Shown piece by piece: positions 15,879-50,724 of a stretch of 64,000 nucleotides of DNA. Where the stretch lies: positions 496,001-560,000 of the forward strand of contig WHVA01000008.1 of the NCBI GenBank assembly GCA_015179125.1, given 5' to 3'. Source of the stretch: Gautieria morchelliformis (taxonomy: Eukaryota; Basidiomycota; Agaricomycetes; Gomphales; Gomphaceae). The notes beneath the pieces are model-generated. The model was not told the origin of the DNA, made no database searches, and saw only the letters and a list, made by a program, of their open reading frames with translations. A program made the translations under genes and the position numbers. Numbering within the stretch: the first letter of the stretch is position 1; each line of letters starts with the position of its first letter.

Positions 15879-18088
15879 CTAATCGGTATGCTTCGTTTCT
15901 TGCCTAATATCCAATACGCTATCGCGGGAGGCCACACTCTCGTCATCAAAGACCTCTCCATGCGCATTGGATACTCTTTGTGTTGTGACTGGAGACCTTT
16001 TGCGCCGGATTATCAAGCTGTAGAAATCGACTGGCTTGAATCTTCTTGGCCAAAATATTAATGTGTCGAGAACTTCCTGCGAAAGAAGCTCGAGCCACGA
16101 ACTTATTGTATGAAATAGGAATATATGACCCACTTTGTTCGTGCCAAAAATAATGGAAGCGACGAGTGGGGCTAGGATAGACATGAATACATAGATAATT
16201 GCCATAGCATGATGAACGTGAATCACGTACTTTGAGCTTGCAGCGTGTCGACCCAGATAGGGATGATGGAATAAGAGCCAGATTGATCAGGGCCCCGGAG
16301 GGTAGAAATGCCAGAAACGCTCAGCATAATTGCCACATATGCTCTTTCACCGTGGCAATCCCATAGATAACCGAGGGATAGACATGCAAATGGTGAGCCT
16401 CAGGACGCGAGAAGCACCACAGCATATGGGGAAAATAAACATACACGGCGACCACAATGCGATATGCGCAAAAGATGATGACACGAAAGGCAACAGAGAG
16501 TGGTATTCCAAGTGCATTTTCTCCAGTGCGTTGAAAAAACCACCAACGGCGATACAGAATGCGGATTATGCATACTTTGAAACGGATCAGGGAAGCAACA
16601 AAATGAGGACCCAACTTACCATCAAATATGAGAGTGACAATCAAGATGAAGAGCAATACCGTGTACTGGGAGATGAGGCTATGGAGGTTGGAGTTAAATG
16701 TCTCAGTTTGCAGAGTGTAAATAAAAGGATGGAGTGCTCACAAAGTGTCATTTTCAAGTAACGTACAATAAAAATTGGTTTGAAGTGGTCGTCCGGAACT
16801 GAACTGAAACCAGAGCGTATAGATAACCAGAGGAGACTTGGCCGTAGAAGCAATGAGGTCTAACCTTGACAAAGCCCGCGCTAGCACTAGCGCTGAGAGC
16901 CAGCAACGAGAACGCCAGTAGGGACACATAAGGCGCTGCTAGAAGCTGTTATGGTGGAGAAAGGACCCATATATTACAATTACAGATGATGACAAATGAT
17001 ATCTACCGTAGCTCTCGTCCATCGAATTTGTCCAGGTGTAAGAGGTCCATGGATGGCAGCTCTGATATCCAACCACAGCTATGGATGGATGAATTGTGCA
17101 CTCCCAATGACAATAGAAGAACACAGCTACCTGAACAATCAATGCACACATGGCGGTATCTGTCATCACCTGAACTCCGGAGACCAGTGTTGCCTGAGTC
17201 AAGCACTCCCGGTCGGAGTGAATAAATGGAAGAGTCGCTGGAAAAGATACGCTTGCTGGTCAACGATATAATCTACCGTAGCCCGTGGCGATGTGCTATG
17301 ACCCGAAATACGACAAGGCTTGACTCACCCTATAGAGAAAGTTATGCTGGACAATATCCACGTGAAGCAAAAGTTAAGAAATATAAGATTCCGTATCGTT
17401 TTTTTGGGAAAGATAGAGAAAATGAGGACGATGGGAAGCCCAATGTGACCGCCGATTATCTGTAGCGCAAGGTATATGGCCTGCTTTTGCCTCAGCTCTG
17501 CATAATAACCGAACTGAGGAGACGAAAAGGGCAAATCAATGAGCTTCACACACGTTTATCTAGTCCATTCAGACTATCCAGGATAGCCGAGGCATCAGGT
17601 GTGAGCTGGAGTTGCACGTTGTCAGCACTGTGTCCATAAAAATGGCACAAGGCTATTTGGACTACCATGGCTACATGTCAGATGCTTCTGCAATTGGCAA
17701 TTTGCGACCGATGACATTACTGTTCATATCATATTGGACTTGTGCCAACCATACCCCATCTGGTTCAGAATTCCCGCATAGCATATACATTGCAATATCC
17801 TGGATTTCGTTGTTTGAGCAGCAGCCACGAGCTCCAAGGCATACATCCAAAGGTGAAGACTTCGGTGGGCACTTCATTGCCGGTTTGTAATTTCAGTGAG
17901 CTTCCATAGCGAGTAAACAGTTCACCTGTAGCACCATCGTTCCATTGGAAAGAGGAGCTGACAATGGAATGTGATCTATTTTGACTGAACGGACATAAGT
18001 TTTCCTTGCAAGATCTCGAAGTATCGTACTTACTGCTTGAACATGTGGCAGCAGCGACGAAGGGTAGAATCACAGCAATCCCCAGCAT
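15879..18088 (-). CDS. Seven-pass membrane protein with secreted ectodomain, copy 2
   Basis: Best readable member of the family. Signal peptide MLGIAVILPFVAAATCSSS starts at 18088; a likely intron begins GTAAGTACGA in the next codons. The ectodomain gives NGTMVLQVNC, then GARGCCSNNEIQDIAMYMLC and WLAQVQYDMNSNVIG (about 17685-17840). Hydrophobic segments: GGHIGLPIVLIFSIFPKK and FLNFCFTWILSSITFSIG (17325-17460), TDTAMCALIVQVAVFFYC (about 17110-17165), APYVSLLAFSLLALSASAG (about 16880-16935), IPLSVAFRVIIFCAYRIVVA (about 16440-16500), and YVFMSILAPLVASIIFGTNK (about 16140-16200). After a further intron the tail EVLDTLIFWPRRFKPVD and a polar cytoplasmic end reach the stop at 15879. The hydrophobic loop layout, with FGT near the end of the last helix, is typical of an agaricomycete 7TM family; ligand and signalling partner are unknown. 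Confidence 0.65.
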
Positions 18089-20353
18089 TCACAGAGAGAA
18101 AATGTTCAAGTAGAAGAATGAGTGGCGATTGACTCCGCCTGAACTGCACGGGTTTCGGTTATAAGAGTCTATCGCGAGCGCCAGTCCGCGAAGATTTAGC
18201 ACAGCAAACTTTGATCGGCAGTGTCGACTCAATGGTCTTCTAACGAGAACAAACAAACGCCAAAAACGAATACAGTCAAAGGCAGCATGTTACAATGGTA
18301 CAAAGGGGAAATAAATCAGTTAGTAAAATGGATAAACCAAAACCAGGCAAAGAACTTTACCTCCGACTGTCAGAGGGGAGAAGTTACGCCTAAGGGAGGA
18401 AGAGCGATCGACAAGTGCGAATGAGTCAAGGGAAACAAAGCAACGAAAGCAATAATACCACAACGAACCGAGTGACATAGATAAGCGGCATAAGTGGCGA
18501 CCATTACGCTGTTGCGTGAGTGCCTCGCTATGCACCACAAAAGAGATCGAAGCGCCTGGCCGGCGCATTGCTATGACCCATCATGATGGTGAGGAGAATG
18601 ATACGATATGAATTAAGTAAGTTAGGGGTCAACGACGAAGGATATCCTTCGGGAATCGTGCATATCCCTTGAAGTGAAGTTGGGTCGAGAGAACCCTCTT
18701 TCGTCGGAGCGAGGACATAAGCTGGATCCATGTATAGAAAGTTGCGGTGCTTCATACGCTGCCAACACGTTCGACAGATCCCAAGCGGGCAATTGGCAGT
18801 GAACCAGTATAGGGCTTCTTACCTTGGAGCAGATCAAACGAACGGCACCGATGAATGTATTCTCAGCTGGATGACATCAATCAGCGTGCACGGCAGAGAA
18901 CAAGTTGGTGGATCGGTTCTTCGGTAAAGACCGGGACAATTCTACACTGTCACTATTACCTGAGGTTTGTCTTTCCACACCCTATAGTCTCATCGATCTC
19001 ATCGATGGTAACCATGGCGTAGAATCTACGCCATGACAACATGATGCGCCTCAAACTCGTCCCTGAATTCGCCCCTGTCATACTGCAGCAGGCGTAAAGA
19101 GGATCGAGCCAACGTCAGATATCTTGGGCATTCGAGCGATTCTCAGGTGCCGCCTTTATAGGCATTTGCATGTGCCTGATGAGCGGATCCTGTCTGACGT
19201 GGAATTTGTCCGGCCTTGATCGGTTCTTGCGGAAGGGGAAGTAGCAGCGTGCCATACACTCACTGGCGACTCGCTTCCAACGTCCGGACCGTGTTGATGA
19301 TCACGCCCCGTGACATCTCTAGCTCATTGTCCTGCACCAACTTCAACTCCTTCGTGGCATGGCGCGTGAACTAATGCCGTGCCATGTACCGTTCTAGCTG
19401 AGCGCGAGCGCGGCTAGATGTCGGTGCCGCGGACACTGTCCCTTGCGGCGCTGGACGGTTCTTGGGTCTGGGTCTCCTACCTGGCTGCACCAAAGCAGCC
19501 GTCGCGACTGGTGGCACATACGTCCCGTTCCATGAATTTCCCCTTCGTGACACTCATTAGTTGGTCGCAGTTGGAGGTTGAGTCATATGATCTGTCAAAG
19601 CCATCGATTAAACCTACTGCCCATGACTGGCAACATGTACTCACTGGTTCACCCCATCTACGACGTGTGCGGACCGTCCGCCCATCTGGTATGGTGTCCA
19701 CATGCTGGGTGCTGATGGACCGTCGCTCGTACATGGCCATCGCTTGGCCGCTGTGCCACCGGACAATGGATGTCAGCGTAAGCGCTCTGTCCATTTCGCT
19801 GAAGGATTCGCACAGTCGATCGCATAAGGAAGATCAGGCCCTAGAACCTTGGAAGTGGGGAAAGTAGCCATGGTGCTGACTTGTTCGTTCGTCATACAAT
19901 TCGCCTCCTTCGGCAAGAAGTCTGATGAGTTGCACTGTCATTGAAGGCGACAGAACGTCGCGGTGAGATGGCTCTGCCACGCCGTACGGCTGCCATGCAT
20001 GATTCCAACATGCATCATGCTGTTGGTTAGGTTGCTGACCCCAGCAGCAAGAAGGAAAGAGATACAGAATGAAAAATCATAATAAATATTTACATAACAC
20101 GTCATGCGGCATACCGCAACGGCGACGCTTCAAATTCCCAAGTGCGTGACACTTTCGGTCAAGTCTCCATGATTTCAAATCACAGGTAAGACGCGAATGT
20201 TTAACTGTGCCAAAAACTCTTCATGAACCAGCAAATTCAGTGGTTATTCAAACGACACGGGTCACAGTGAGTGGTAATTGTGCTCGGCCGGGAGAGCCCT
20301 TTATCCTGAAATTGATGCATATATAAGTGTGGCCATAAATTTTGGGATTAGGC
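18089..20353. other. No recognisable gene; weak minus-strand coding signal at 19300-19560
   Basis: The first 150 bases are the promoter side of membrane-protein copy 2. Around 19371-19553 the minus strand reads an Arg/Pro-rich peptide. A following stretch, ELKLVQDNELEMSRGVIINT (about 19280-19340), looks like real protein in a shifted frame. This may be a decayed gene or element protein. The rest of the 2.2 kb is anonymous. Confidence 0.3.
19013..19035. repeat. Perfect inverted repeat, 11-bp arms
   Basis: CATGGCGTAGA (19013-19023) and TCTACGCCATG (19025-19035) are exact reverse complements around a single A. Just upstream is the palindrome-rich CATCGATCTCATCGATGG. The structure could be a binding site for a dimeric factor or a small cruciform. 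Confidence 0.7.
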
Positions 20354-22706: not shown

Positions 22707-24159
22707 CTCCACACCGACACTGGCTCCGAAACTACGAGCCTTACCGCGTTCCCATACGATTAGCCACGAATGAAGTCGTCTATTCGACCGGAAAGGGGCA
22801 GATTCTATTCACCCCTATAATTGACGGGAAAATGGCACAAGACATCATTTTCTCAAATGTTTTACATGTACCAGCCCTCCAAAATAATCATTAGCCGTTC
22901 TTCACCTCACCACCCATCATAATTTTTCCGTCAATATCATGCAAAGCCGTATCTCATTCGTCCAAGATGGAGTATTACATTTCTGCACCACGGTGCGAAA
23001 CGGAACTGGTTTCCTAACCGGAAACACTGTCCCTAACCCAGAATACGCCTTCTCCGCATCGTCTCCCATTGTAGATCGATCCTTGTTACACAGGCGACTC
23101 GCACACATCGAGTCATCCCGTTTGGAAAGACTCTTAAAACATGACATGGCCCGTGGGATACACTTGAACTCCAATGCAAATATGCCGCCTATCTGCGAAC
23201 TCTGCATTGCGGCGAAGCAACACCGTGATCCATTCCCAAAAAGAAGTGAAAGCCGTACTTCCAAACCGCTCGACCTTGTCATCTCCGATGTCCATGGACC
23301 CCTCCCTGTGCGCACACTGTCCGGTCATCGATACTGGATAACTTTTACAGACGATCACACACGCTTCCGATGTGTGTACCTCCTGAAATCAAAGGACGAG
23401 GCCTTCGATGCCTATCGCTCCTACGAGGCGTTTGCTGAAAACCAAACAGGATCACGAGTGAGGAGATTCAGGGATGACAAAGGAGGGGAATACATAGGCC
23501 GGAAATGGGACGAGCATTTCCAACACCGAGGGATAATTCATGAGCACACTACCAAGGGTACGCCGCAACAGAACAGAATCTCGGAACGAACAAATCACAC
23601 ACTCATTGAAGGAACGATCACATTACTGCAACAGGCTCGTCTACCAGCATCAATGTGGGGAGACGCCCTACAACTATTAGTCCGCATTATCAACGCCACA
23701 CCAACCTCTGCACTACCTGACATGACGCCATATGAAGCCTGGTACGGCCACAAGCCAGATCTGGGAATGTTACGCACTTTTGGCTGTATGGTGCATGTTC
23801 ACGTGCAAAAGGATGGAAGGGATGGGCTTCAGCCTAGATCTCGAAAATGCATCTATCTTGGCTTCGAAAATGGATACAAAGGTTGGCGTTGTCTCGATCC
23901 CACTACAAAGCGCATCATCATATCCCGCGACATTATCTTCAATGAAACCGAGTTTCCGGGCCTCTCCACTAGCGATCCTACCCAAAGCTTGCTCAGATCA
24001 ACACCTGTCCTACTCCAACTGAGATTGCTGCACCGCCTGACCCAGACCCACCAGATGCCCACCATGAAGTGCACCCTCCTCCTATTCCTGACCAACCTGA
24101 CCAAGACCTGCCGGCTCTTCCAGACCCTGCCCCACTCTCCCCTGAACCGCCAGTTCTAG
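22685..24159 (+). pseudogene. copia protease-like and integrase region
   Basis: A protease-like phrase (MGATSHMT) near 22685 is followed by a zinc-binding integrase head (HRRLAHIESSRLERL ... CELCIAAK). The core is recognisable from DLVISDVHGPLPVRTLSGHR, FRDDKGGEYIG and GTPQQNRISERTNHT, the D, D and E region. A downstream Pro-rich linker leads toward the reverse transcriptase. In intact relatives this enzyme inserts the cDNA. It is part of a broken element. Confidence 0.82.
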
Positions 24160-24457
24160 CTCCAGACCCCGCCCCACCCGCACCTCCCTGCAACCCCGCC
24201 GATCCAGCAGAGCTCCCGCCTGCCCCGATTATCGGTATCTCCATGACCCCTTTTTCCGACCACGACCACCTCCCGATCACGACGATCCTGGGCCTGAAGG
24301 GGGTGCTGCAGCCAGAGCCTCAATAATCCAGGCCCTGGAATTCATACGCGATGGATCGGACATCACCAGAGCAAAATTAATCTCACCTGACACCATTGAA
24401 CTGACATTCAACGCAACCATCAAAGATGATCGTGTCCCAAAAACGTTCGCTGAGGCA

Positions 24458-25996
24458 ATGTGTCGCTCTGATGCACCATTATGGAAGAACTCTACGGACG
24501 CTGAAATCCAAGCACTCTTGGACAACGGGACATGGGAGTTGGTGAGACTGCCGCCTGGAGAAAAGGCCATTGGGTCGCGATGGGTATTCCGGATTAAATT
24601 CAACTCAGACGGTTCCCTGGACAAATACAAAAGTCGTCTGGTAGCAAAAGGCTATACCCAGCGACCAGGCATTGACTATGACGAGGTGTTTGCCCCTACC
24701 ACGCGATGGGCAGCCCTGCGGACAATACTGGCACAAGGGGCACTTCAGGGAGCATACATCGAATCTATAGACATTTCGAACGCATACCTAAATGGGATCC
24801 TAGGCGACGACGCCCAAATCTATATGGAAAAACCAGAGGGATATCATCAAGGGGGTGCCGACTGGGTATGCAAGCTAAAGTGAGGGCTCTATGGATTAAA
24901 GCAAAGTGGACGGCTGTGGTATGAGCGGCTCAGATCGGCACTTGAGAACATGAGATTCACTCGCCTCCAATCCAACCCAAGTGTCTATATCTGGACAAGC
25001 AAGACCGTCAAGATCGTTATACCAGTCTTCGTTGATGATCTCACCCTGGTATCAAACTCGAGACACGATCTTGACAGGGTCAAAGGCCGTCTAGCTAAAG
25101 TCTTCAAATTGAAGGATTTGGGAGAAAAAAAATCACTGCTAGGTGTGGAAGTACAGTATGATCGCCTGCAGAAGACGCTAAAACTCTCACAAAAACAATA
25201 TGTCGTGGAACTACTCGACCGATTCCACATGTCCGACTGCCGACCCATATTCATGCCTATGAGCCCTGGATTAAACCTAAGCTCAGCAATGGGACCATCT
25301 ACACTGGAGGAGATAGCAGAAATGAAAAACCTGCCTTACTTGAATGCGGTTGGAGCATTGAACTATCTTGCCATCCCCACTCGCCCTGACATTGCCTATG
25401 CCATTGGATGCCTCGCTCGATTCAACTCAAATCCGGGCCCAGCACACTGGGTGGCAGTAAAACACCTCCTGCGTTATTTGAAGGGGACGACTGATCTAGC
25501 ACTCACATTCGCACCAAATAACGCAGGCGAAATCTTTCGAACATGGACGGACGCCGATCACGGAGGAAATCCAGACAACGGTCGCTCGACGTCTGGTTTC
25601 CTCATCAAGATCGGGACCGGAACAGTTAGCTGGGCCAGCAAGTTGCAAAACATAGTTACCTTATCAACGACAGAAGCCGAGTTTGTGGCAGCAACTCTCG
25701 CTGGTACTGAAATCATCTGGCTGCGAAGCCTATTCGACGAACTCGGTTCGAAGGTTGATGAGCCATCTCATCTCTACATCGATAATCAATCCGCACTCAC
25801 CATCGCCAAAAATCCAGAGCACCACGGGCGGATGAAGAATCTGGACCTCCGATACTTCTGGTTGCGGGAGAAGGTTGCTCAGAGAGCCATCCAAGTTGGA
25901 TATGTGCCCACAAAGGATATGCCGGCCGATTTACTGACAAAAGCGTTACCTTGTGAATCGGTAGAACGGCACCGTCGTGCTATGGGACTCTTCTGA
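24458..25996 (+). pseudogene. copia reverse transcriptase and RNase H region
   Basis: Begins MCRSDAPLWKNSTDAEIQAL and GSRWVFRIKFNSDGSLDKYK, the conserved copia start. It has IESIDISNAYLNG, the catalytic box VFVDDLTLV, and SRPDIAYAIGCLARF-like sequence (here TRPDIAYAIGCLARF). The RNase H part reads TWTDADHGGNPDNGRSTSGF, TEAEFVAATLAGTE and LYIDNQSALTIAKNPEHHGR, ending at 25996. It is part of a broken element. Confidence 0.85.
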
Positions 25997-26147: not shown

Positions 26148-27960
26148 CCCATACCGATTTGAGTCTGAGATAAAGTAATTGGAACATGAACGGGGTAAGA
26201 AACAAGCACCACTAGCCTGTCGTACGCCGCCAGGGAAATAATAACCCACTGTCCTTTGCTGACGGGGACACTGGTAATGACTTCACCTGTTCTCGTTGTC
26301 TGTGGCATGGACAGTGGGATGATGTGATCCTTGGCCGCTTCACGATTCATAAGAGTAGCAATGGGATGGCATCTCAGAGTCTCCTGCGAACAAGGTATAA
26401 TAGGGCAGATTGTCAGTAGAGTGTATAACCTAATAGCATTTGGCTCACTTTCATGAGAGCAATCATATATTTCATGGAATTCAAATCGGCAATACTCATC
26501 TCTCTATCACCCCTCTGTGCAGCATGTGCGTGAGTTACCCGTATCTCCTCACGAATTTGACTTTGGAATCCCGGGTGTTTTGCAAATTCATAGAGAGCCC
26601 AGCTTAAAGTATTGGTACTCGTTTCATGCCCGACAATCATCAAGGTCCTAATATGCATAACAATTAACCAGTCTGTCTCTCCACACGATTGTGAAGGAGG
26701 AACACCAACGTTAACTGCGCCATTACCTCCTCCTCCGTGAGTTTAGTTTTCGGATCCTCGGACATATTGGCTTTGACTGGGATATGGATTAGGATTATTT
26801 TGGCGATATGTATTGGTTTGAGATACACACTAAGGGTACTCATGACGTCTTTTCCACCTTCTTTAACGACCGAAAGTGCTTGAGTTTGTGTGTTCACTAT
26901 AGTTTTAGCGAAAGAGCGGGCAACTGTCATATACCTCTTCAAGCGCGAAAGCTGCTTTGTCGGAAACCTTCCGAGCATTATAGCCAATTGCAAAGGTATG
27001 AACCCCCACAGTGCCTCAAAGGTGATGCTCAAGTCGGAACGGTTATAGAATGAGTCAGCACTGGCCGACGACCATCAGTGGCACGATGTAAGCGAAAGAG
27101 CCGCCCTTACATGAGATTATGGTAGACATTCGCAAGCTCGTTATCCTTCTCGTCTATTGCCCCGAAGTCATAACCAAAGGCGGCTGGTACGGGTCAGAGT
27201 ACGCTCATTCCCTAAATCTTGGAGAGGTTCACCTTGGCCGAGCACGTCCAACGCAGTGTGAGACAACCAAGCTGGGATGGACCGTAGATGTACCACTCCA
27301 GGACATCTCCTCTTTCCATTTGGTTACAGTCTTCGGTTGAGAGTGAGTACAGAGAACTCCCAGATATCTACATGGACGAACCCGCTGTGCATTATAGCGA
27401 AACAGAGGTAGGTAGAATTTCAAGACGAGAACCCCGGGTTCATAATATTTTTGTGCCTGGAATGTTGATCGCCTGGCATACCAATGCAAGGATGAGTCCG
27501 TGGTCATCTCCCATATACCAAATTGAGGGCACCTTGTGCAAAAAAGAGACCCTCGCCTGTCACCAACCTCAAAGTAGCAATAATCTGCTTTGTTTGGGGA
27601 AGTGGTACCCTCCTCCAGTGTTGCAAACATATTGAAGGGCCTGGACGGATTATTTGAGAGGGTCGATTTATATGCAACAGGAGAATTTACCTTTGGGTCA
27701 GCTGTAAACAGGGCCTCGGTCTGAGATGATCAACGTTTGGATGTCGTGTCAATATCTGAACAAATATGAAAACTGACACCCCAAGCTCCCTTGATCCTAA
27801 TAGCAGATCCATACTTTTCAGTCCATGCAATCTCTGCATCAGCTGCGTTCTCTGGCCGAATCAGGTCAGGCAGATTGCCTGTTGAGATAAATGAGAAGTA
27901 TACTCATATTGGCTATCTGAAAGTGATATTACCAACGAGCCAAGACCCAGCAGGGGGCCC
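26148..27960 (-). pseudogene. Cytochrome P450, N-terminal and middle part
   Basis: Minus-strand exons read downward from 27960. They give GPPAGSWLVG (27933-27960), NLPDLIRPENAADAEIAWTE (exon from 27878), TEALFTADPKALQYV, GDQHSRHKNIMNPGFS (helix C), KWKEEMSWSG, FGAIDEKDNELANVYHNLM, then ITFEALWGFIPLQL (about 27030). They continue with the I helix GHETSTNTLSWALYEF (oxygen-binding threonine region), MKYMIALMK joined across an intron to ETLRCHPIATL (ExxR motif), and SVPVSKGQWVIISLAAYDR. The order fits a fungal class II P450. The membrane anchor and first 30 or so residues are missing: recognisable sequence stops at 27960 in T-rich repeat DNA. A probable stop lies near helix C, and the last intron here shows GC at its donor with the frame one base off after it. 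The gene is therefore dead even without the retroelement. Confidence 0.85.
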
Positions 27961-28059
27961 AAAAAAATATAAAAAAATATATACATGCAATCATCATATA
28001 ATAACACACAAACATAGGAGCAGTAGTGCCAAAGGCACTGTAGCTGGAAGAAAATATGA

Positions 28060-28421
28060 CACTGGAGGCATATAAAAATTTTCTGGTCTGAAAAACTGTT
28101 GAAAAAACTGTAAAGATATACCAATTTTTTTTAGTGTTTTTAATGTAAACAAACTTTAACATAATTTTGTGTTTTTGTTAGAATTTGTTGAGCAAGAAAA
28201 TTGTAAAAAAGTTTAAAGTTTTTTGCAGGGTTTTTTTATGTCTTTTTAGAAGTTTCTTTGTGAAAACACAAAGAAACCTATAAAAAACCCTGAAAATAAC
28301 TTTGAATCTTTTTACAATTTTCTTGCTCAACAAATTCTAATAAAAACACAAAATATTTGGAATATCTTTACAGTTTTTTGAACAGTTTTTCAGACAAGAA
28401 AAGTTTTATATGCCTGCAGTG
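28060..28421. repeat. CACTA-type foldback MITE, intact copy
   Basis: 362 bp that folds almost entirely on itself. The left end reads CACTGGAGGCATATAAAA, and the right end is the reverse complement of CACTGCAGGCATATAAAA. TGA lies directly outside both ends, a 3-bp target duplication. CACTR termini plus 3-bp duplication are the marks of CMC/EnSpm elements; no coding sequence is present. The hairpin centre is near 28265. Confidence 0.85.
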
Positions 28422-28644
28422 TGAGAGGATCATGTTGTACGTGAGTTCTCTGGCCTGGGGTTTATATACAATATTGGTGGTATTATGGAAAGCTGGACTG
28501 ACAAGCTTCATTTTTAGCCGCTGCACCACTGTGTCAGTCACGATTTATCAGCGGATGGGTCGGCATGAACCCTTAGACCCCCAGACATCATAATAAACAC
28601 AGTCTTGGGGTGAAATCAAGGTGTACGGTGAATAAAAAATTGAT

Positions 28645-28726
28645 CATGTGCTACTGCGTTATAGGCCAAAAATGATCGCTAAGTGAAGTTAAAACTGTAC
28701 GCTAAGTGAAATTAAAACTGTAAGTG

Positions 28727-28760
<34 letters not shown>

Positions 28761-28965
28761 AACAGGTCCTGTTGCATTATAAGCCATCACAAAAAATATG
28801 GCTAAGTGAAATTCAGTGTGCAGTGAAAAAAAAAAATCCCTGGTCATGTGCTACTGCAGATTTACACCAGTGTCTTCTTCAAATGGCTCTGAGGCAAACT
28901 GTCCAAAGTCAGTGCAAAAGTGATTGCACTTGTGTTGGCCTGGAAATGATTGCAAACCAAGTGGC
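28645..28965. repeat. Left inner inverted arm, with antisense copy of the kinase last exon
   Basis: Starts CATGTGCTACTGCGTTATAG, contains repeated GCTAAGTGAAATTAAAACTG units and a 27-bp A tract (28727-28753). From about 28858 it reads, on the minus strand, QHKCNHFCTDFG then EPFEEDTG, matching the end of the alpha-kinase at 30640-30712. Homology to the right arm stops near the 5' side of that exon. Confidence 0.7.
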
Positions 28966-29658
28966 CTTGATAGAAATCGTAGTTGACCAGGCGGGTCCGG
29001 CCCTTGAGTATCGGACCAGGATTGTTCCTAGACCCACCAGCCGAGATTGTAGAGTCCGATACATGGAGTCCCCTTCCGCTCTCCCAGATTCTACACAATG
29101 TTGGGAAGCCTCCGTCATCACACCAGGTATAAGTCCATTTATTGACTATGCAACGGAGACCATGAATTCTTACCTGTCGTTCATCAGCTCGCCAGTGTTT
29201 TGCCCTCTGTCATGCAATCTGCTGGACTACCCTCACGTACCAGTATCCTTTCGGATCAAGTCCCGGTAGCTGTGTACCTGTGTATCTCCTAATTGTGCTA
29301 ATGAGCGCCTCCCTGCCCAGATCCCCATGGCCAGTGTTGATGTTTCTTCCCTCTCCCATGCAGACATTGAGTCCGCTCCTGACAGACAGGCCCTCGGAGC
29401 ATCCCGCAAGCATCCAGTAAGTGTTCAGCAAGTTTGTTGCACAATAATTGACCGGGTAACAATGCAGCTATCAATGCCCACATCTCCTGAACGTACTCCT
29501 CGCCCCAAAAAGTCCAACAGTCCTGAATGGCAATCCCCAGATAGAGCAGTCCTATGCAGTGTGCTGCAACAACAGGTGGTGAATGTTAAACTTGCCAGTG
29601 CATGAACCTGCCTTTTCAATCCATGATGTATTTGTTCATGTCTAAATAAGGCTCCGAG

Positions 29659-30712
29659 GTGCAGCATGCAATCGAATTTTTCCCGATTTATTTGAAGGCC
29701 TTTTTTCAGATGCTTTCTTCATGTCCCTCCCCCAACTTCAGTGTCCACGCTTACCATGGCCACTTGTATACTGATCTGCAGACTGAGCTGGAACCACCAG
29801 GCTCATTCAAAACTGCCCATCCAGGACGATTATCCCTTGATGCCCCACAGACATTGGTTCCTCCGGCACTAGGAATGATCCCATATGAGTCTATTGCAGT
29901 CAAGCGGGCATACTACAAGGAGACGGTCTGTGGGAAGGACCGGGTGAAATGCTTTTCAGGGGCATATGAGGTAGATATTATGGGCTGTGAAGGTAAAGCT
30001 CTGTATTGGGAAATGTCCCTGATGGATATGGTCTATTTATTGCTTTGTGAAGCGCCATGTGGGGAAAGCTGTAGTGTCCCAGGAAGGCTTTGCAGTGCCA
30101 GAGGCAAGTGCTGGTGTCACCTTTCTGATCCATCTAGACTGACTCTCCATGGCCAGATACGCTTTGTGAATGCTGGCCTGGCCATTATTCGTAACATGGA
30201 GGGCAAAGCAACCAAGGCCTTGCTCTTGGAACAGTTGATTGATGCCGGCCAGGGTTTGTTTCGCAAATTTGTCCACAATGGCTCTGCCAAACCTTTACTG
30301 GATTGCGGGAGCCAAGATCACAATCTAGCATGCTTCCTGTGTTTTGTGCAACACGTGCAATGGACGAAAACAGGTGGATTGGCTTGGGTATCTGATTTCC
30401 AAGGCATGGTTTGAAATCTCCCTAGCTGTGAAATGCTAATGTGTGTCCTTGGTAACAGGAGGTGACACTGTACTTTCAGACCCACAGATCATGACACACC
30501 CGTGAAGGCATCATTAATATACTGAAGCTAGTGCTAACACAGATACTGTTGCTGGACATATCAGGGCACTGGCAGTGATCTTCAGTCAGGGGAATGTAGC
30601 AGCGGCATTCCGATCATTTCCAGACCAACATGAGTGCAATCACTTTTGTGCTCACTTTGGACTGCTCGCCCCAGAGCCATTTGAAGAAGACGCTGGGGTA
30701 GAGCTGCATTAG
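29659..30712 (+). CDS. Alpha-type (atypical) protein kinase
   Basis: Predicted serine/threonine kinase of the alpha-kinase (MHCK/eEF2K) family. Exon 1 from 29659 holds the N lobe (IAVKRAYYKETVCGKDRVKC) and then QIRFVNAGLAIIRNMEGKAT, LIDAGQGLFRKFVHNGSAKP, LACFLCFVQHVQWTKTGGLA and VSDFQG. Intron 1 is 30404-30458, a GC-AG intron in the second base pair of the Gly codon, and gives QGGDTVLSDPQIMTHP, the conserved DLQG/LTDPQ region. Intron 2 is 30502-30585. Exon 3 reads QGNVAAAFRSFPDQHECNHF then CAHFGLLAPEPFEED, with the H-x-C-x3-C zinc module typical of the family, and stops at 30710-30712. The domain appears complete and all phases agree. An upstream frame (29327-29605) and a possible exon ending at a GTATAAGT donor (about 29130) may belong to an N-terminal extension; the true start is unknown. 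Confidence 0.8.
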
Positions 30713-31021
30713 CACACAACCCGGGATTTTGTTTTCACCGCACACTGAATTTCACTTTGCCATATTTTCCGTGATGGCTTATAATCAACTGGACCTGATT
30801 TTATTTCATTGTACAGTTTTGATTTCACTTAATGTACTGTTTTAATTTATGTGATGGCTTATACCCAACCGGACCTATTTGTGTTTCATTGTACAGTTTT
30901 GATTTCACTTAGCGTACAGTTTTAAATCCACTTTGCATACATTTTAATTTCACTTAGTGATGCTTTTTGTCGTGGCTTATAACAGAGTTGCACATGTTCA
31001 CATTGATCTGTAGTAGCACAT
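30597..31021. repeat. Right inner inverted arm
   Basis: Reverse-complement counterpart of 28645-28965, covering the last kinase exon and its 3' flank. It has repeated TTTGATTTCACTTA and GATGGCTTAT words and ends GTAGTAGCACATG. The last coding exon lies wholly inside the arm. Confidence 0.7.
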
Positions 31022-31376
31022 GAAAATAAACGGGGACAACAGAATGAGAATAAATGGATATCGTGCTTCCCAAATACTTTGTTCAAATTCTGGGACAAAG
31101 CGTGAATACCGAACCATCCCACGGCAGAGGAGGAAGTCGTCTTCTTCCCTCTTAGTTGCACCTGTGAAAAGGAGTGTGCCCTTGCTTGCCAGCTGATGTG
31201 AGTCGGTTTACAGCCTTTCCACCAAGCTGACGCAGATTTGGAGGCATGCATCGGTGACTTGGCGTACATTAGCCTCTCTGGCAAGCGGGAAATGTGGAGA
31301 ATCCCGCACGAGTCTTCTATGAGTTGACCTTGAATACTCAAACGACTTAAGGTGGACCCAACGTCGGAAGACAGCG

Positions 31377-31612
31377 TGCGGTTCACATGCACCGTCCGCC
31401 GTATGCACGTATGGTGCACAGGCACCGTGCGCCCTCCCGATGTACAGTGCACTCGAACTGTATGCCATCTCCATGTACAGTTCACGTCCACCATATGCCA
31501 TATGCACGTACAGCACACGTGCACTGTTGCCATATCCACATACGGTTCACGTCCATTGTCCGCCGTATGCACGTATGGTGCACGGGAACCGCACGCACGA
31601 ACGGTGAACATG
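31377..31612. repeat. Imperfect tandem repeats of about 33 bp
   Basis: Roughly seven diverged units built on GTATGCACGTATGGTGCAC and TGTACAGTTCACGTCCACC. The best pair of units is 31381-31427 and 31544-31590. Open frames on both strands across this stretch are by-products of the period being close to a multiple of three. Confidence 0.6.
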
Positions 31613-31946
31613 ACAATTGTCAAGTCTACCATCAGAGTCATGGTTGCTGAGGGCAGCAACGACACTGTACTAGCCATAAAGAGGGGCAGCATCGCCGTCT
31701 GTCTGCCACCAAAGGGGCTCGGCCACTCCTGGGTTGAGACAAGCGTGTTCCATGGATATCTAGCTGGTGAGTATTACTCTACAGCTGTCTTTGGGGTCTA
31801 AGGGTTCATGCCGACCCATCCGCTGATAAATCGTGACCGACACAGTGGTGTGGCAGCTAAAAATGAAGCTGGTCAGTCCGGACGGTATTGTCTAAAAACG
31901 GTGTGACGATGGTCCAAACTGGGTATGATCCTACAGCATAGTTAAC

Positions 31947-33221
31947 TGTCAAGATTGCTTTTCAGGCGTTAATATCGTGTATTAGTGAACACAGCGAATG
32001 CCCGAATAACTTGTGCGAATAAGTATGCCGTTCGGTGAATAGGTGAACCAATGGATGTTCACAAGGTAAGAGGGTTTGCCTAAACGGGGCTCACCCTATC
32101 TACAGTCGTAGCGAAATAGCCCGTGACTCTTGACGATGTAACGTGCAAGGTCTCACGGAAGGGCTGTCTAAGTCTCGACAATCCCTTCACTGGCGAAGGT
32201 GCTCCTTCGGAGCCCTTCACCAACAGCCCAGAAAATGGTTCGAAGGCTAAGGTAATGAAGATGAAGTATGAGAACTCACCAGTGATGCCTAAGTCCTTTG
32301 CTAGTCGAAGATGGGAATCTCCAAGAGAAGGCTTAAGATGATGACCACGGTGAGGTCAAAGCTGCACAAGATGAACGATGTATAATAATTGAACTGGGGG
32401 ATATACATGCGAATGTAAACTACTTATATCGAATGCTCGTAAGGCATCAGCGAATAGGAAAGAGGCCGTCACAAGTCAGGGTTGGATAGGGGTGCGCAGC
32501 CATGATACAACATAGATGAAATAAACATGCAATAGAATGTGAGAAGAGAGAGAACATGAAACGACGGAGGGTAAAGGTGGCGAAGGCACTTATGGACAAA
32601 ACCATGTCTTGGGACCCGCATACATGCTACCCTGCACGGACTCTTGGTCTACTGGGTTGATTCCGCACGATCTATGGAAAGGATGTCCTGTGAACATACT
32701 TTGACCATACGAACGCTCAATGGGGTTGGATTTAAGAAGACGATGGGGTTAATGATGAACCATCATGCAGGGTGAATGGTATCGATCGTTTTTGATGGTG
32801 TGCCTGCTGGCGAATGATGCGAGCGGCGAATAGCCGTTCGGCGAAATGCAAGGAAGGGCGAACAGAAGTGACATAGGGGAGGAGAGGTCGAGGTGGAGGG
32901 TGAAGCCGAGCGAACACTGAGGAGGGGTAGCGAAAGGGAAAATGGGGATACCAAGGTGCAGGAGATGCACAGGTCATGACAACCAAACTATTAGAACACC
33001 ATCGGAAGAGGGTCGAGCAGAGGAGGTGGTAGGCCCAGTGATGACTGCCGAGTCAGTCCCAAGACGTCGATCGTGCGTTTTACGGTGCGGCTATGGTAGT
33101 TGGCGCGAACAGCGAGAGTTGGTTGCCAAACATGACAATGGTGATCGGAACGAACATGAAGGTGGGGTGAGAAAATAGGAAAACTGAGCTTCTGAGTATG
33201 GGAAATAAACACGTCATGACA
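31947..33221. repeat. Solo LTR, copy A
   Basis: 1275 bp from TGTCAAGATTG to GTCATGACA, bounded by the 5-bp target duplication TTAAC (31942-31946 and 33222-33226). No internal retroelement sequence adjoins it, so it is a solo LTR left by recombination. The superfamily is not certain; long LTRs of this kind are usual for Ty3/gypsy. Unit B at 33294-34568 is the same family. Confidence 0.85.
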
Positions 33222-33293
33222 TTAACAAGGCTGCAAGAGACCATGCGGATTATCAGCTCCCCGGGAGTGCCAGGCCTCGTACTAGCTCAGCCC

Positions 33294-34568
33294 TGTCAAG
33301 ATTGGTTTTTAGGCATTAATATCGTGTATTAGTTAACACAGCAAATGCCCGAATGACTTGTGCGAATAAGTATGCCGTTCGGCGAATAGGCGAACCAATG
33401 AATGTTCACAAGGTAAGAGGGTTGCCTGAACGGGGCTCGCCCTATCTACAGTCGTAGCGAAATAGCCCGTGGCTCTTGACGATGTAACGTGCAAGGTCCC
33501 ATGGAAGGGCTGTCTAAGTCTCGACAATCCCTTCGCTGGTGAAGGTGCTTCTTCGGAGCCCTTCGCCAACAGCACAGAAAATGGTTCGAAGGCTAAGGTA
33601 ACGAAGATGAAGTATGAGAACTCACCAGTGGTGCCTAAGTCCTCTGCTAGTCGAAGATGGAAATCTCCAAGAGAAGGCTTTAAGACGATGACCACAGCGA
33701 GGTCAAATTCGCACAAGATGAACGATGTATGATAATTGAACTGGGGAATATACATGCGAATGTAAACTACTTATATCGAATGTTCGTAAGGTATCAGCGA
33801 ATAGGAAAGAGGCCGTCACGAGTCAGGGTTGGATAGGGGTGCGCAGTCATGATACAACATAGATGGAATAAACATACAATAGAATGAGAGAAGAGTGAGA
33901 ACATGAAACAATGGAGAGTGAAGGTGGCGAAGACACCTGTGTACGAAATCATGTCTTGGGGCCCGCATATACACTGCCCTGCACGGGTTCTTCATCTACT
34001 GGGTTGATCCCACACGACCTACGGGTAGGACGTCTTGCGAACACACCCTGCTCATATGAACACCAAAAGGGGGTTGGATTGAGAAGCTGATGGAGTTACT
34101 GACGAGCCATCATGCCGGATAGGGATGTCGATCGTGATTTGATGGTGTGCCTGTTGGTGAATGATGCGAGCAGCGAATGATCGTTCAGCGAAATGCGAGG
34201 CAGGGTGAACAGAGGTGACATAGAGGAGGACAGGTCGAGGTGGAGGGAGAAGCCAAGCGAACACTGGGGATGGGGTAGCGAAAGGGGAAATGGGGAAAAC
34301 CAGGTGCAGGAAATACACAAGTCATGACAATCCGATCATAGGAACACCATCGAAAGAGGGTTGAGTAGAGGAGGCGATAGGCCCAGCAATGACTGCCAAG
34401 TTAGTCCAAAGACGTCGATCGTGCATTTGACAGCGTGGCTATGGTAATTGGCGCGAACAGTGAGAATCGGTTGCCGAACACGACAATGGTGATCGGAGCG
34501 AACATGGAAATGGGGTGGGAAATGGCAGGACAGAGCACCTGAGTATGAGAAATAAATGTGTCATGACA
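33294..34568. repeat. Solo LTR, copy B
   Basis: Also 1275 bp, TGTCAAGATTGG to GTCATGACA, with its own target duplication AGCCC (33289-33293 and 34569-34573). It lies 72 bp from copy A in the same orientation. The different duplications show two separate insertions rather than one element's two ends. Copies A and B look about 90% identical by eye. Confidence 0.87.
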
Positions 34569-34573
34569 AGCCC

Positions 34574-36620
34574 TCTCCAGCCTTCATTTGTTCGTAATTA
34601 TAGAAGTCTTACCAAATTGATACGGGGTTGACATGTGGAGGACGGCACAGAAGAATTGTAGACAGCCCGTGTGAGCATTTGCAACTCGAACACTGATAGA
34701 ATGCATACATGCCCGGGACGCACAGTCCACCGCGGATTCCGTGTTGCACTCTCGGCGATGTATGGGCGACGCAGACCTGCGTCACAGACAGGGACCCTTG
34801 ACCTCGCCATGGAGGCCCAACTACGCGGTATCAATGGCCTCAACGATGTGAAGGCAGCCCTCATACATATCTGAGGGACACCCAAAGAGTCAAAATAGCA
34901 ATTGGTGCCAGGAACACTGAGCACTCCCCCAGTCGATGAGATTTGTCGAAGTCCTTCGTCGGTATCCATGATCACGATGACACAGACAGGCAGGATTGGC
35001 GTTGGATCTTGTGGCATGAAACGCATTATACTTGGCATCCTAAGCGCCGAGTGGATGCAATCCTAGCACAAACATACCTGAGGGAAGAACTGCAGGAACG
35101 GAAGCAATTAATCCTACTGGCTGCACCAACATGATACTTACTTTGGACTGGATCAAGCGAACTCCACGAATGGACGTCTGAGGGAAGAACTGTCGCACAC
35201 AGCGCAAAGTCGAAGTACTGGAAGCCAATGGGTTTGAATCTGAAGGGGTCACGAGCACCCACATCCACAGTGCTCTTTACCATGTCATGTTCTCATGTCT
35301 CCTCCCTCTCCTTGTCCGCCTTCATCAATGCTTCCAGGTCCAAATATTCATGTGTGTTGCCTGAGTCTCCCTTGCCAACTGCCTCCACACCATCACAGCT
35401 CACATGCATCCGCACTTGTACATATACTGTCCCGGGACATGCGACATTATTACCATCAATACCAATGCATCGCTCCCTCTATAAATGTCTATTCATCGCC
35501 CGACGGCACCCGCCCCACCTCTCCCCTCATTTGTTCCTAGTCAGTTCCATATCGCCGGCAATGTTAGGAGTAAGCATTGGGAGAAAGTGGGTGGGTGTAT
35601 GATGCTCTATACACACATTGGTTGCCTCTCAGGCTGGACGCACAAGTACCACATTGTGCGCTCTGGTATGGCTATAAGTACAGACAGAAAAGAACCCCGA
35701 AGAACGCCAGAAGACTGGCTCTGATGTTCTGGCGCACTTTGCTGACTGCGGCTTACCTCCTATGGTTTGCTTTACTTGAAATTCTGGTGCATTTGGGTGA
35801 TTCGTTCCACTTCGGGTGTCCTCTGGTGTCCTTGGCTGTGGGTTTGCCGTCCTTTTCTCCATTACCCTGTGTGTTCCGTACATCAGGCAAAAGGCATGGT
35901 GATACACAGTCCTATGCAGTCCTATGTAGGCTATGTAGGACTTATAGGCCTGTAGGACATTGGCCATTTATGTAGCATACCGTAGTTTGACAGTGGTACT
36001 GTAGGCCCATGTAGCTGTCTTGTAGGCCTACGTAGTGGACACACAAGAGTACATTGAGCGCTGTAGGTTGATGTAGCAGCGAGGTAGTTGCGCTATAGGC
36101 TGTCTGCGGTATTTCTTCAATTCAAGCTTATTTGGAATCAATATATCTCATTTATACTGTACGCGTACTACAATCCGCTGGCAAATAAATTAGCAAATGG
36201 GACCTCAACCATTCTCAATCCTCATTCTTCAATGGGCTGCGCGGCCAGTGTCAACTTTGTCAGATTGAAGTTCGGGCTTGGGCCATCTTGCATGATCACA
36301 AGGTGGGCATGACAGCACATGTTAACATTGTATTGTGGTTAAAAGATACTGTGGGGACTTACCTGCCGTTACCATACCGATTCTCTTGAGGCGACAGAGA
36401 CTCTGAGCGGATTTTGTGCTAAAGCATCGCCAGGCTAGATGGCCACTGAGCTGGTGCACATACACCTCATGGAAAGAGTCCTCCACAAAAGATTACCTGC
36501 GCTGTGGAGAGTAGGAGCCCCACCCGCATCAACAACGGCACTCTGCAACAATGTGTGGTCAAGTGAAAGATTGGATCAGCCATGGGTGACAGTCCAACAA
36601 TCACAGAGCAGTTTAGTTGA
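34574..36620. other. No secure gene; possible minus-strand fragment and a low-complexity patch
   Basis: The minus strand at 35130-35283 reads MVKSTVDVGARDPFRFKPIG and continues to a good GTAAGTATC donor after DPVQSK. A second minus frame, 34598-35038 (MDTDEGLRQISSTGGVLSVP, then GTNCYFDSLGVP), may be a later exon. I recognise no domain. The segment 35480-35780 resembles 14000-14300. A plus frame at 35577-35975 has hydrophobic stretches but no other support. Sequence 36100-36620 is anonymous. Confidence 0.3.
35926..36088. repeat. Cluster of GTAGG/TGTAGGCC words
   Basis: About twelve GTAG words in 165 bp, several as TGTAGGCC or CTATGTAGG, with CCTACGTAG in the middle. Short dispersed words of this type are typical of subterminal regions of DNA transposons, but no element end could be fixed here. 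Confidence 0.45.
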
Positions 36621-36994
36621 CACTGCAGGCATATAAAAGTTTTCTTGTCTGAAAAACTGTTGAAAAAACTGTAAAGATTTTCCAAATATTTTTAGTGTTT
36701 TTATTAGAATTTGTGAATCTGTTGAGCAAGAAAATTGTAAAAAAATCCAAAGTTTTTTTCAGGGTTTTTTTATGGGTTTCTTTGTGTTTTCATAAAGAAA
36801 CTTATAAAAAGACATAAAAAAACCCTGCAAAAAACTTTAAATTTCTTTTACAATTTTCTTGCTCAACAAATTCTAACAAAAACACAAAATTTTGTTAAAG
36901 TTTTTTTACATTAAAAACACTAAAAAAATTTGGAATATCTTTACAGTTTTTTGAACAGTTTTTCAGACCAGAAAAGTTTTATATGCCTCCAGTG
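36621..36994. repeat. CACTA-type foldback MITE, second intact copy
   Basis: 374 bp, CACTGCAGGCATATAAAAG at the left and its near reverse complement ending CTCCAGTG at the right, with TGA outside both ends. Same family as 28060-28421; arms of about 180 bp fold back on each other. Non-coding. Confidence 0.85.
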
Positions 36995-37316
36995 TGAAGA
37001 TGTTTATGCCATTCTAAGTTTGACACTTGTCAAGTACTGACGAGCTCAAACGAAGCATGCGGTGCAGGGGAAGAAATGACAGAGTGAACATAAAATTTTA
37101 CCAGAACATATTATTAGCATCCATAGGGAGTCATAAAGAACTATGAGAAAAGTATGCAGTGCGTCTGCAGCTCGAGGACCCAAGGCAGGTTGGTGGTGGT
37201 ATGGACAGAAGGTCGTGTTTGGTTGTATACCAAAACAATGCTTCAGGTCACGTGCAGCCTTGAAACATCAGAGCTTGAAATAACTTGTGAGAAAATGGTG
37301 CAGCAGGGCACATTGC

Positions 37317-38803: not shown

Positions 38804-41800
38804 TTGGAATCCATGCCATTGCGCTGCGCCTGTGGTAAGACCTTCACCCGTGACCATACACTGACAAAGCACCTGAACTCTGGCTGTACCGAGAGTCACA
38901 AGTGCATCCGATCATCAGATGAGGCCGCTCGTGCACTCACTCCGAGTCATAGGAAGCGAAAACAGCGGAAAATCAGCCATTCACGCAGCCCAGAACGTCG
39001 TCCTAAACATCGGAGCACCGGGGTGAGTGGGAATGACAACCTGACGGACCGTGACAAGGGGCCCGGGGATGATCATCAGGATGATTCCGATCGCATGGAA
39101 GTGCAGGGAGGACTTACCCCTGGGAATGCAGAGCCGGCGTTGCAAGGCCATGGGCACCGGAAACGCTGGCCCACGAGGAAAGTGCGTGACATGCTGCCGG
39201 AAGGTCCTGGCCCACTGCCTCTGCCCCCTGTGCCACAGGAGGCCGAACCATCAGGATCGACTGAGCAGGCAGAACCAGAGCAGCATATCGCACGAACATT
39301 CATACAGCTCAGTAAACATGTCCGGCTCCGCTTGACACAAGTGGTTCAGACCACCGCCAACACTTTTGGCCTATCGCGGATCTACTATGGTCGACCAGCA
39401 CGGGTTCCTGATGAACACGCCACTTTGGATGAAACCGCCGCTTCAGCCTCCCTCCGAGCTACAGTTTTGCAAGCTCCAAGGCCTTCGCTTAAAGAATCTT
39501 TGTGGCCCTATCCTAACACGAGTGCATGGCGCTTAGGAGATTGTTTTTGGAGTGGGGGAGATACCAAATCCAAAAGTGGCCTGAAGTCCTTGGTCAGCAC
39601 AGTTTTGCTTGCCCGCGACTTTGTTCTCGAGGATTTGATCGGTGTGCCATGGGATGCCATCGATGCGAACTGGCTCTGGCACACACCGTGACATCATCTT
39701 TCACAGGCAGAGGTTGGACGGAGTCCTCCGTCCGCATTCATGTGCCACTGGGTGTCAAACGCACCAAGAAGGCGACGAAGAAAGCACATAAGCGTCAGGG
39801 TGCGGCACATGATGCAGGAGATGACTCGGGTCTCGGATCTATATCCGATGCGTGGTTTACGGTCAATGGGCTCTGGCGACGCTCCATTGTGGATATCATC
39901 AAGACCGTATTTAGTGATGATTCAGCGGCAGCACAGTTCCATTTTGAGCCCTTTCGTCATGTGTGGAAGCCCCCCGGCAGTGAAGACAGGGCACAGCGTG
40001 TGTATGATGAATTCTACACATCGGATGTCTTTTTGAAGGAGCACGACCTTCTCCAAAATTCACCTCGGGAGCCGGGCTGCGACCTCCCAAGAGTCATTTC
40101 GGCACTGATGTTCTCGTCAGATTCGACACATCTCGCACAATTCGGTACAGCCCAACTATGGCCGATATATATGTTTTTCGGAACCAATCCAAGTGGGAAC
40201 GTTGTAAGCCATCCACAGAGGCTTGTCACCATGTTGCGTATATGCCCAAGGTCTGTCTCAGATGCTTATGATACGTGCACGTGGTATTCATGTCTATTCA
40301 TGTCTATACTAGTTACCAGATACCATTCATGACTTCTTTCGGAAGTCACAAAGTGGCAAGACGGCTTCCAGCGCACTACTAACTCACTGCCGAAGGGAGC
40401 TCTTCCATGAGGTCATGAGACTTCTCTTGGATGCGGATTTTGTGCATGCCTGGAAACACGGTATAATCATTAAATGCCACGATGGGATCACGTGGAGGGT
40501 TTACCCACGTATTTTCACGTACGCTGCTGATTATCCAGAAAGGTAAGCCCACATGTGATTATTGTCTGGTCCGTTCCCTGACGCTCCAATCACCTTCATG
40601 GTCAGGGTGCTACTCTAGAGTATCCGGGATGGGAGCGAATGCCTTTGCCCCGACTGTCATTGTCGGAAACAGGACGTATGTCGTCTTGGGACTTTACGTG
40701 ACAGGAAAACTCGGCTGCGTGGGGTTAGAGAAAACACACGAGAGCTCAGGGCCAATATAGCGACTGCCCGGCGAATTATTTACAAGGATGGCTACATGGT
40801 GAACAGTCATGGCCTTGATCTGTTTCTTAAGATGGGCTCGTACGTAGCCACAGAGGTAAGCAGCTCTATGTGCATGGTGTCCATTTCTAAGCTAGAGCCA
40901 GCAGAATGTGTTCGCTCACATTCTGTCATTTGCAAACTTCAATCATTTTTGTATGCTTGTCTCAGACCTGATGCACGAGGTGGAGATTGGTGTTTGGAAG
41001 GCACTGATGATACACCTCATACGTATGATGAACGCTAAAGGTCCCAAGGTACTCCAGGAATTTAATGAGAGGTACATCTCCCATTCCGATCTCTCCTACT
41101 TGACTCATTCAATGGTTTCGACGCTCAGGTTTCGGGATGTACCCAGCTTTGGCAGGGGGATGATCCGTCGCTTCTCTCATAATGTGTCAGAGATGAAAAA
41201 ATTGGCCGCACGCGAATACCAGGACATATTACAGGTGAGTGATGTATTCGGTCCAGGGATAATGGACTGAGGGTGCATGATCACAAGTGTGTGATCCCTG
41301 TCATTGAATCCCTATTCCCTGAGCCGCACAATGCACCGATTCTTGACCTTCTCTGGGAGTTAGCACTTTGGCACGGTATGGCCAAACTGCGATTGCATAC
41401 TGAAACGACTCTCCGGCAATTGGATACCACGACCACCCATTTAGGGCAGCAGTTCCAGAGGTTCACTGATGAGGTGTGCCCCCACTTCCATACTTACGAG
41501 ACTCCCACAGAGGTTCAGGCCTGCCTCCGCCGGAATGCGGTGGCAGCCGGGAAGGTTGGGAGCATCCCGGGATCGAAAGAACCTGAGCACACAGGCTGTA
41601 AGCACAAAAGCTTCAATATGTGCACCTATAAGATGCACGCGCTTGGGCATTATGTCAAAAACATCGAACCATTTGGGACGACAGACTCCTATTCCACCCA
41701 AATTGTGCGTATCGACTGCAACCATGTGTGTACTCATGCTGAACTGGGAACCCAGGGTGAAACAGAGCACCGCCGGGCCTCTCGTTATCGGAATAGGACC

Positions 41801-44045: not shown

Positions 44046-44480
44046 TGTCAGGGTTCACGCATTTCCTTCCACAAGTTTCTATTTCCTTCCATGAGTTTCC
44101 GTCAGTTTCCATAACCTTCCGTCAGTTTCCATAACTTTCCATCACCTTCTGTCACACTCCATCACATTCCTTCACATGTCACATTCCATCACATTCCGTG
44201 ACCTTCCATCACTTTCCGTGACCTTCCGTAACCTTCTACAAGTTTCCGTCTCCCCTATTATGTAAGCCTTGCCAGCGCTATAAGACTGTAGCCCGTGTGG
44301 TGGCGTTTCCTCAGCTTGATCTCTGAGGATACCCACTACACAGGCAAGTCCCCATGTATCTATCATTGGTAGAGTTATAAACTGAGGATACCCACTACAC
44401 AGTTGGTCATTGTCCTAGTATCGGCTCTTATCTCCTTGAGTATCTTTGGTTGTGGCTTCGTCATTAGTGTTGCCCTCACA
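44046..44480 (+). repeat. 5' LTR of the gypsy element
   Basis: TGTCAGGGTTCACGC to GCCCTCACA. A patch of roughly 12-bp repeats of the type TTTCCGTCA/CCTTCCATCA fills about 44070-44240. The repeated phrase TGAGGATACCCACTACACA (44326, 44382) follows. Confidence 0.92.
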
Positions 44481-45647
44481 GAAGATCAAGCTCATAGGAC
44501 GACCCCACAAACTTTTCTTAACCAGCCTTCATCTCAGCCTATGGCAGACCAACTCCCAGATGCATACTGGGACCCCCTGGGTGACCATGGTCCATTTCTT
44601 CGAGGCCTCCTTTCCAGCCAAGCACAGCAGCTGCAGCAACTTCAACTGCAGAATCAGGAACTGCACAGTCAGATTGTTAACGTTCACGACCACTTAGCCA
44701 ATGCTGCCGCCAACGCTGCTATTGCTGCTGCTCAAGCCCTTGCGCCCTCAGTACCTCACAGTGTCCCTCCATCTACTCGCTCTATCAAAGCAGCGGAACC
44801 GGAGAAGTTTAATGGAGACCGTGCAGAGACTGAAGGGTTTATCAGGTCTATCAGGTTGTCCATCGCTGTCCAGCCAGCATCCTTCCCAGATGAGTGCACA
44901 AAGATCCTATATGCTCTTTCCTTCATGACAGGAGGCTCTGCGGAGATATGGGCACACAACGAGACACAGGCTGTCATTGATGGCACCTCCTCTATATCCA
45001 CTCTGGAGGGGTTCATTAAACGTGTGGAGGAGGCCTTTGGTGACCCAGATCATGCCAGAATGGCTCACACTAAACTGCATGACCTTAGGATGGCGTCAGG
45101 AATGTCGGCAGATGAATACACGGCTCAATTTGAGATCCTGGCAGGCAGGACAGGCTTTAATGATGAGGCACTCAAGGATGCTTATGCTCGTGGCCTTCCA
45201 GCAGGTATCCTTGATAAGATCCACGCCCAGCCCTTTCTTCCATCCAACCTCAAAGCCTGGAAGGAAGCAGCCTGTCAGATTGACCGCAATCATCGCCGTC
45301 TGTTAGAGGTCAGGAAGGCACAGACACCTCATGTCCCTAATCGCCCTCCTCCTGCCCGACCACTCCACACTCCTGCTATGGCTCCTGTTGTCACAGCACC
45401 ACCCAGTAATGCGACACCTATGGACATTGACTCATCCCGCCGCCGCACTGAAACACGGACCTGCTACAACTGTAAGAGACCTGGTCACATTTCACCAGAC
45501 TGTCCTGAACCTCGCAAGCCACGAATCCGCGCAAACCTCACAGAGGCAGACATTGCAGCAATTGTCTCTAAATCTGTAGCAGCGGCAATGGAGGAACACA
45601 AACAGAAGGTGGAAGCCCCTGTCCAAGATGAAGGAAAGGGTTTTTAG
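44403..45647 (+). pseudogene. gypsy gag region
   Basis: Gag-type protein with a Gln-rich coiled stretch (AQQLQQLQLQNQELHSQI), a retrotransposon-gag core (AEPEKFNGDRAETEGFIRSI to FGDPDHARMAHTKLHDLRM) and one CCHC knuckle, CYNCKRPGHISPDC, near 45460. The first ATG lies inside the LTR; the ATG at 44541 (MADQLPDAYWDPLGDHGPF) is a more likely start. Forms the capsid in relatives. Confidence 0.85.
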
Positions 45648-49621: not shown

Positions 49622-49663
49622 CCGTTCACTTCCACTGCATCGACCCCACCACATCCATCAACC

Positions 49664-50221: not shown

Positions 50222-50274
50222 GGGCTAGGTGGCAGCTGTGCTTGTCGGGACGACAAGCATTGAGAGGGGGGTGA

Positions 50275-50719: not shown

Positions 50720-50724
50720 GCATC

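Follow-up and report, generated by a model that had tools for sequence, protein, structure and literature searches.

The closest described systems are the TET+ IS3EU elements, which are DNA transposons of fungi, including Pucciniales and Tuber. In PMC12730594, all TET+ IS3EU families are reported to carry an alpha-kinase gene oriented opposite to the transposase, and the Pucciniales IS3EU families are given 6-bp TSDs and the ends TAYGG..CCRTA. For IS3EU, PMC10045372 describes TSDs that are usually 6 bp long and ends of the form TA..TA. The Agaricomycotina section of PMC12730594, which covers TET-bearing families only, names no IS3EU in its available portion. Among the papers examined from the open-licence literature, PMC12730594 was the only source for an alpha-kinase as cargo of a DNA transposon; TET-less IS3EU families in Repbase may have this cargo too. 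The original prediction had held that no described transposon family is defined by such a cargo; this belief was wrong, because the fungal TET+ IS3EU are described with one in that paper.

The locus analysed here lies in a 64-kb stretch of DNA, referred to in full as the window. An alpha-kinase gene is enclosed by inverted arms, as originally proposed, with the outer and inner arm blocks in identical order on the left and right, far above chance, and with an antisense copy of the end of the gene in the left inner arm (Table 1). We consider it moderately probable that this unit represents the remains of an ageing, transposase-less DNA transposon carrying the alpha-kinase as cargo.

Table 1. Features of the candidate unit and of its surroundings in the window.
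Feature	Position	Strand	Remarks
Candidate unit	~28485-31890		Inverted arms on both sides of the alpha-kinase gene
Left outer arm, candidate TIR	28495-28581	+	94% complementary to 31793-31879
Left inner arm	28638-28955	+	Two 23-nt units, A tract, partial 80-nt unit, antisense kinase end
Antisense copy of the last 35 kinase codons, including the stop	28851-28955	-	In frame throughout the copy
Alpha-kinase main exon	29650-30403	+	Open frame 29650-30411; 5' end of the gene provisional
Intron 1, GC-AG, donor GCATGG	30404-30458	+	Required for SDFQGGDTVLSDPQI in frame
Alpha-kinase small exon, GGDTVLSDPQIMTHP	30459-30501	+	Modelled by eye, frame checked
Intron 2, GT-AG	30502-30564	+	From sequence; frame checked
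Alpha-kinase last exon	30565-30712	+	Zinc motif H-x-C-x3-C; stop TAG 30710-30712
Right inner arm	30608-31004	-	Kinase end, about two 80-nt units, about three 23-nt units
80-nt units, right inner arm	30763-30842, 30843-30922		Repeat search
About three 23-nt units, right inner arm	30891-30957		Repeat search
Right spacer	31005-31792	.	788 nt; contains 33-nt-period array 31442-31575
Right outer arm, candidate TIR	31793-31879	-	Partner of 28495-28581
Copia-type sequence	22888-25993		Pfam domains
Plavaka transposase	39517-40329		42 bits (Pfam)
Gypsy-type sequence	44373-49618		Pfam domains
LINE-type sequence	61671-63665	-	Pfam domains

Judged from its sequence, the gene between the arms is an alpha-kinase. 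The joined model yields SDFQGGDTVLSDPQIMTHP in frame and scored 42.9 bits against PF02816 (E 7.7e-11; gathering cut-off 21.3), with a match spanning profile positions 74-185 of 185. A first, incomplete splice that omitted the small exon had scored 23.2 bits against the same profile, and neither kinase exon frame by itself matched alpha-kinase in Pfam. The open frame of the main exon comprises 254 codons, a length attained in 3/500 shuffles of the unit. The predicted protein shares the C-lobe aspartate and zinc motifs of the PF02816 family (eEF2 kinase, myosin heavy chain kinase A, TRPM7), and its D-x-Q-G, DPQI and H-x-C-x3-C elements were aligned to eEF2K and MHCK-A by phmmer against the PDB, in matches that were weak (E 0.01 to 0.09). 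The sequence AVKRAY, a candidate for the N-lobe region of the ATP-binding lysine, was seen by eye outside the PF02816 profile match; the N-lobe, and its completeness, were presumptively assigned by analogy with fungal relatives. A candidate first exon lies somewhere in 29270-29605, its junction judged by eye. Single-sequence structure prediction of 29785-30408 gave a mean pLDDT of 36.2, and the model was unusable. Pattern searches for relatives of the kinase returned 1 and 8 matches in viral contigs and 10 in prokaryote contigs, none of them a relative by tblastn. A hint of Cys_Knot_tox (E 0.007 to 0.01, below the Pfam cut-off) was attributed to a chance match to the cysteine-rich kinase stretch, and Nucleotid_trans (E 0.025), DUF7662 (E 0.18) and, outside the unit, FTSW_RODA_SPOVE (E 0.011) were dismissed as below the cut-off.

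The repeat search identified outer arms of 87 nt with 94% complementarity and core inner pairs at 28828-28955 / 30608-30735 (84%) and 28776-28834 / 30727-30785 (92%), together with smaller pairs; under gapped alignment, the inner arms lengthened to the extents given in Table 1. The inner-arm alignment scored 366 compared with a maximum of 112 in 300 first-order Markov shuffles. The outer-arm score, computed on the wider stretch 28440-28640 / 31700-31940, was 164 against a maximum of 49 in the same number of shuffles. One alignment carried the outer arms outwards to 28460 / 31899; this extension was rejected because the outer flanks, with the neighbouring small element removed on the left side, reached a score of 51, below the 95% level of 60 obtained from shuffles. 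The arms had been predicted to share many short words, and this was borne out by iteration within them, with the 23-nt unit at 28677-28722 and 30891-30957 and the 80-nt unit at 30771-30925. Of four arm words sought with at most one mismatch, two cluster in the unit (TATAAGCCATCAC with 3/3 and TAAGTGAAAT with 8/11 of their places inside it), and the other two are common outside as well (AAAACTGTAC, 6/18 inside; GTAGCACATGA, 3/9 inside).

The zinc-motif exon had been placed at 30586-30712, within the right inner arm. The better exon starts at 30565, and it is the stretch 30608-30712 that falls inside the arm. The predicted duplication of this exon in the left arm is likewise real in part: the antisense copy comprises the last 105 nt of the 148-nt exon, not the whole of it, and occupies 28851-28955 instead of about 28858-28965. 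No kinase frame was present among the upstream frames examined, so the copy cannot make a kinase by itself, and a 32-residue piece translated from it had no Pfam match. The two exon copies differ at 17/105 positions (7, 3 and 7 across the codon positions); over the 35 codons compared, 12 were replaced, 3 were changed silently and 20 were the same, giving a dN/dS of 0.81. The antisense copy retains the zinc histidine and cysteines, which carries little weight at 35 codons. As the exon copies appear free of coding constraint by this ratio, it is probably the DNA ends, and not the protein, that were kept alike.

Arm divergence was 6-16% at aligned positions, with large length differences in addition. 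With gaps excluded, the differences numbered 5/87 in the outer arms, 10/98 and 7/73 in the subterminal parts and 17/105 in the exon. The exon was more diverged than the remaining arm parts (p = 0.04, Fisher; small counts), and the pattern is a contrast rather than a smooth gradient. This unevenness is the main point against a rival explanation that we regard as rather unlikely, namely that an inverted copy of the 3' end and downstream flank of an ordinary alpha-kinase gene (about 1.3 kb to the right) came to lie on its 5' side with no mobility, either by template switching or through the collapse of a divergent kinase gene pair, the latter close to an alternative raised originally. Such a duplication would produce nearly the same picture, and the copied piece is the 3' gene end plus flank, as that explanation expects. 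In addition, a word spanning the kinase stop codon is found again farther out in both arms, a hint of repeated local rearrangement. However, a plain copy should diverge evenly, and transposons commonly have iterated words close to their ends.

The distance between the inner and outer arms is 788 nt on the right (31005-31792) and 56 nt on the left (28582-28637). This spacing, the 6-16% arm divergence and the small counts behind the divergence contrast are points against the transposon reading. The spacing speaks for two nested things, in which a small inverted-repeat element, represented by the outer arms, was entered by the kinase and inner arms, these being either another unit or simply an ordinary gene. 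The palindromic element at 28059-28422 lies beside the unit and also speaks for nesting. Yet the exact direct matches at the inner boundary are short (6-7 nt) and mostly A/T-rich, and the outer arm alone has no copy in the window; overall, nesting appears distinctly improbable to us. No Pfam family above the cut-off was found among the frames tested in the right spacer. A minus-strand open frame of 283 codons at 30925-31773 is longer than any frame obtained in 500 shuffles of the unit, with no Pfam family above the cut-off; its length may be explained by the array that it spans, since the 33-nt period is a multiple of three.

The best TSD candidate, GGTATTAT before 28487 and GGTATTGT after 31883, matched at 7/8 positions and was equalled in 47/400 control draws; an exact 6-bp match, GGTATT, is present here, and such a match occurred in 42/400 control draws. 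Pfam identified no transposase family in the unit frames scanned, which covered part of the frames of the unit, and the minus-strand frame 28862-29209, considered as a transposase remnant, had no Pfam family. No second copy of the arms or of the kinase was found within the 64-kb window: tblastn of the kinase at E below 0.1 recovered nothing beyond the kinase gene and its copy in the left arm, and blastn of the unit (28495-31879) returned its own arms, the tandem units and A-tract matches only. The single copy in the window, the TSD no better than chance and the frames scanned without a transposase all speak for the inverted duplication. With no standout TSD, transposase or second copy within the window and the frames scanned, mobility is at most presumptive. 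The earlier idea of a mobile unit with kinase sequence in its terminal repeats is still preferred, without the TSD candidate as a support.

The transposon reading is the simplest because of the iterated subterminal words, the faster-drifting exon and the transposon-rich neighbourhood. The matching order of the arm blocks, the DNA ends kept alike, the intact kinase frame and the precedent of alpha-kinase genes in fungal IS3EU transposons also speak for it. Under this reading, the ends would be long compound inverted repeats, each made up of the outer 87-nt block, iterated subterminal words and the last 105 nt of kinase coding sequence. The kinase is transcribed outwards and terminates within the right repeat, for which reason its opposite number on the left bears the same stretch in antisense; a gene ending inside a terminal repeat would require no special duplication mechanism. 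The ends would serve as binding sites for a transposase supplied by another source, which would mobilise the whole unit together with its kinase; both this supply in trans and any advantage that the element gains from the kinase are, like mobility, presumed. That the unit belongs to a non-IS3EU family whose transposase-recognised end overlaps the kinase coding end, such that loss of the kinase would harm mobility, is in our view quite improbable.

To address the intactness of the kinase frame, neutral decay was simulated for an 810-nt part of it, with 2000 runs per setting over a range of indel rates. The frame remained intact in 8-40% of runs at an arm divergence of 0.057, in 1.7-23% at 0.096 and in 0.05-9% at 0.16. 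The intact frame is mild evidence for some constraint on the kinase, or for a lineage that stayed alive and moving until not long ago. Intact frames were not rare at 0.057, the lowest arm divergence, and this weakens the transposon reading.

The window contains several other repeats. The Copia-, Gypsy- and LINE-type names in Table 1 are assigned from the domains. Together with the short introns, the Plavaka transposase points to a basidiomycete source, probably one that forms mushrooms. A Gypsy-type element at 44046-50720 has RT, RNase H, integrase and a chromodomain, and is bounded by direct repeats at 44046-44481 and 50275-50720 (96% alike), read as LTRs; GCATC adjoins both of its outer ends and is likely a 5-bp target duplication. 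A tandem pair of 1.28-kb repeats (31946-33221 / 33293-34568, 87%) starts 67 nt beyond the right end of the unit, and a third, diverged copy (about 74-76%) lies 24 kb away at 57885-58758; in the one frame tested in the pair (33336-33770, minus), no Pfam family was found. A dispersed repeat of ~2.3 kb is present in three copies (11180-13457, 15863-18168 and 53796-56217), 69-82% alike in the listed pieces. The minus-strand frame 26664-27074 resembles, by eye, a cytochrome P450 fragment, and the cytochrome P450 family was not reported for it by Pfam. The palindromic element is present in two copies (28059-28422 and 36620-36995, 93% alike) with the ends CACTG..CAGTG and TGA on both sides of each copy; it is CACTA-like, a small inverted-repeat element whose target duplications are 3 bp long. 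The Plavaka ends given in PMC12730594 differ from these ends.

Some basidiomycetes show a strong expansion of alpha-kinases according to PMC4469406, in which the family is called "highly expanded" in rusts and the PF02816 table row counts are 79 and 39. Should transposons of more than one family carry alpha-kinases, mobile DNA could account for expansions of this kind, and it becomes possible to test whether the element uses the kinase selfishly. If only an inverted duplication took place, the unit is an ordinary rearrangement.

Compared with the TET+ IS3EU, the unit has in common inverted ends longer than 30 nt, with 87-nt outer arms here, and an alpha-kinase inside, identified by the 42.9-bit PF02816 match. 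In contrast, TET+ IS3EU possess a TET/JBP gene as well as a transposase, and no transposase, including an IS3EU-type DDE transposase opposite the kinase, was found in the unit frames scanned. The left side carries TATGG at 28484-28488, as in the TAYGG end of IS3EU. CCRTA is absent at the right arm end, which reads CGGTA (31883-31887), and the nearest listed CCRTA site is at 31674. Searches for 6-bp TSDs beside TA..TA ends, allowing at most one mismatch, gave 0 pairs for left 28420-28500 / right 31870-31960 and 0 pairs for the inner ranges 28582-28660 / 30980-31060, and a search over a broader range for TAYGG..CCRTA pairs having a 6-bp TSD (at most one mismatch) gave none. The unit was therefore not filed as IS3EU, given the right end without CCRTA and the lack of a TA..TA pair with a 6-bp TSD near the arm ends; it may be a decayed IS3EU relative or a member of another superfamily. 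Non-autonomous transposons with long TIRs offer a second comparison, as these likewise have inverted ends, no transposase found and transposon genes as neighbours. Unlike such elements in general, the unit has an intact-looking gene with its coding end in the TIR.
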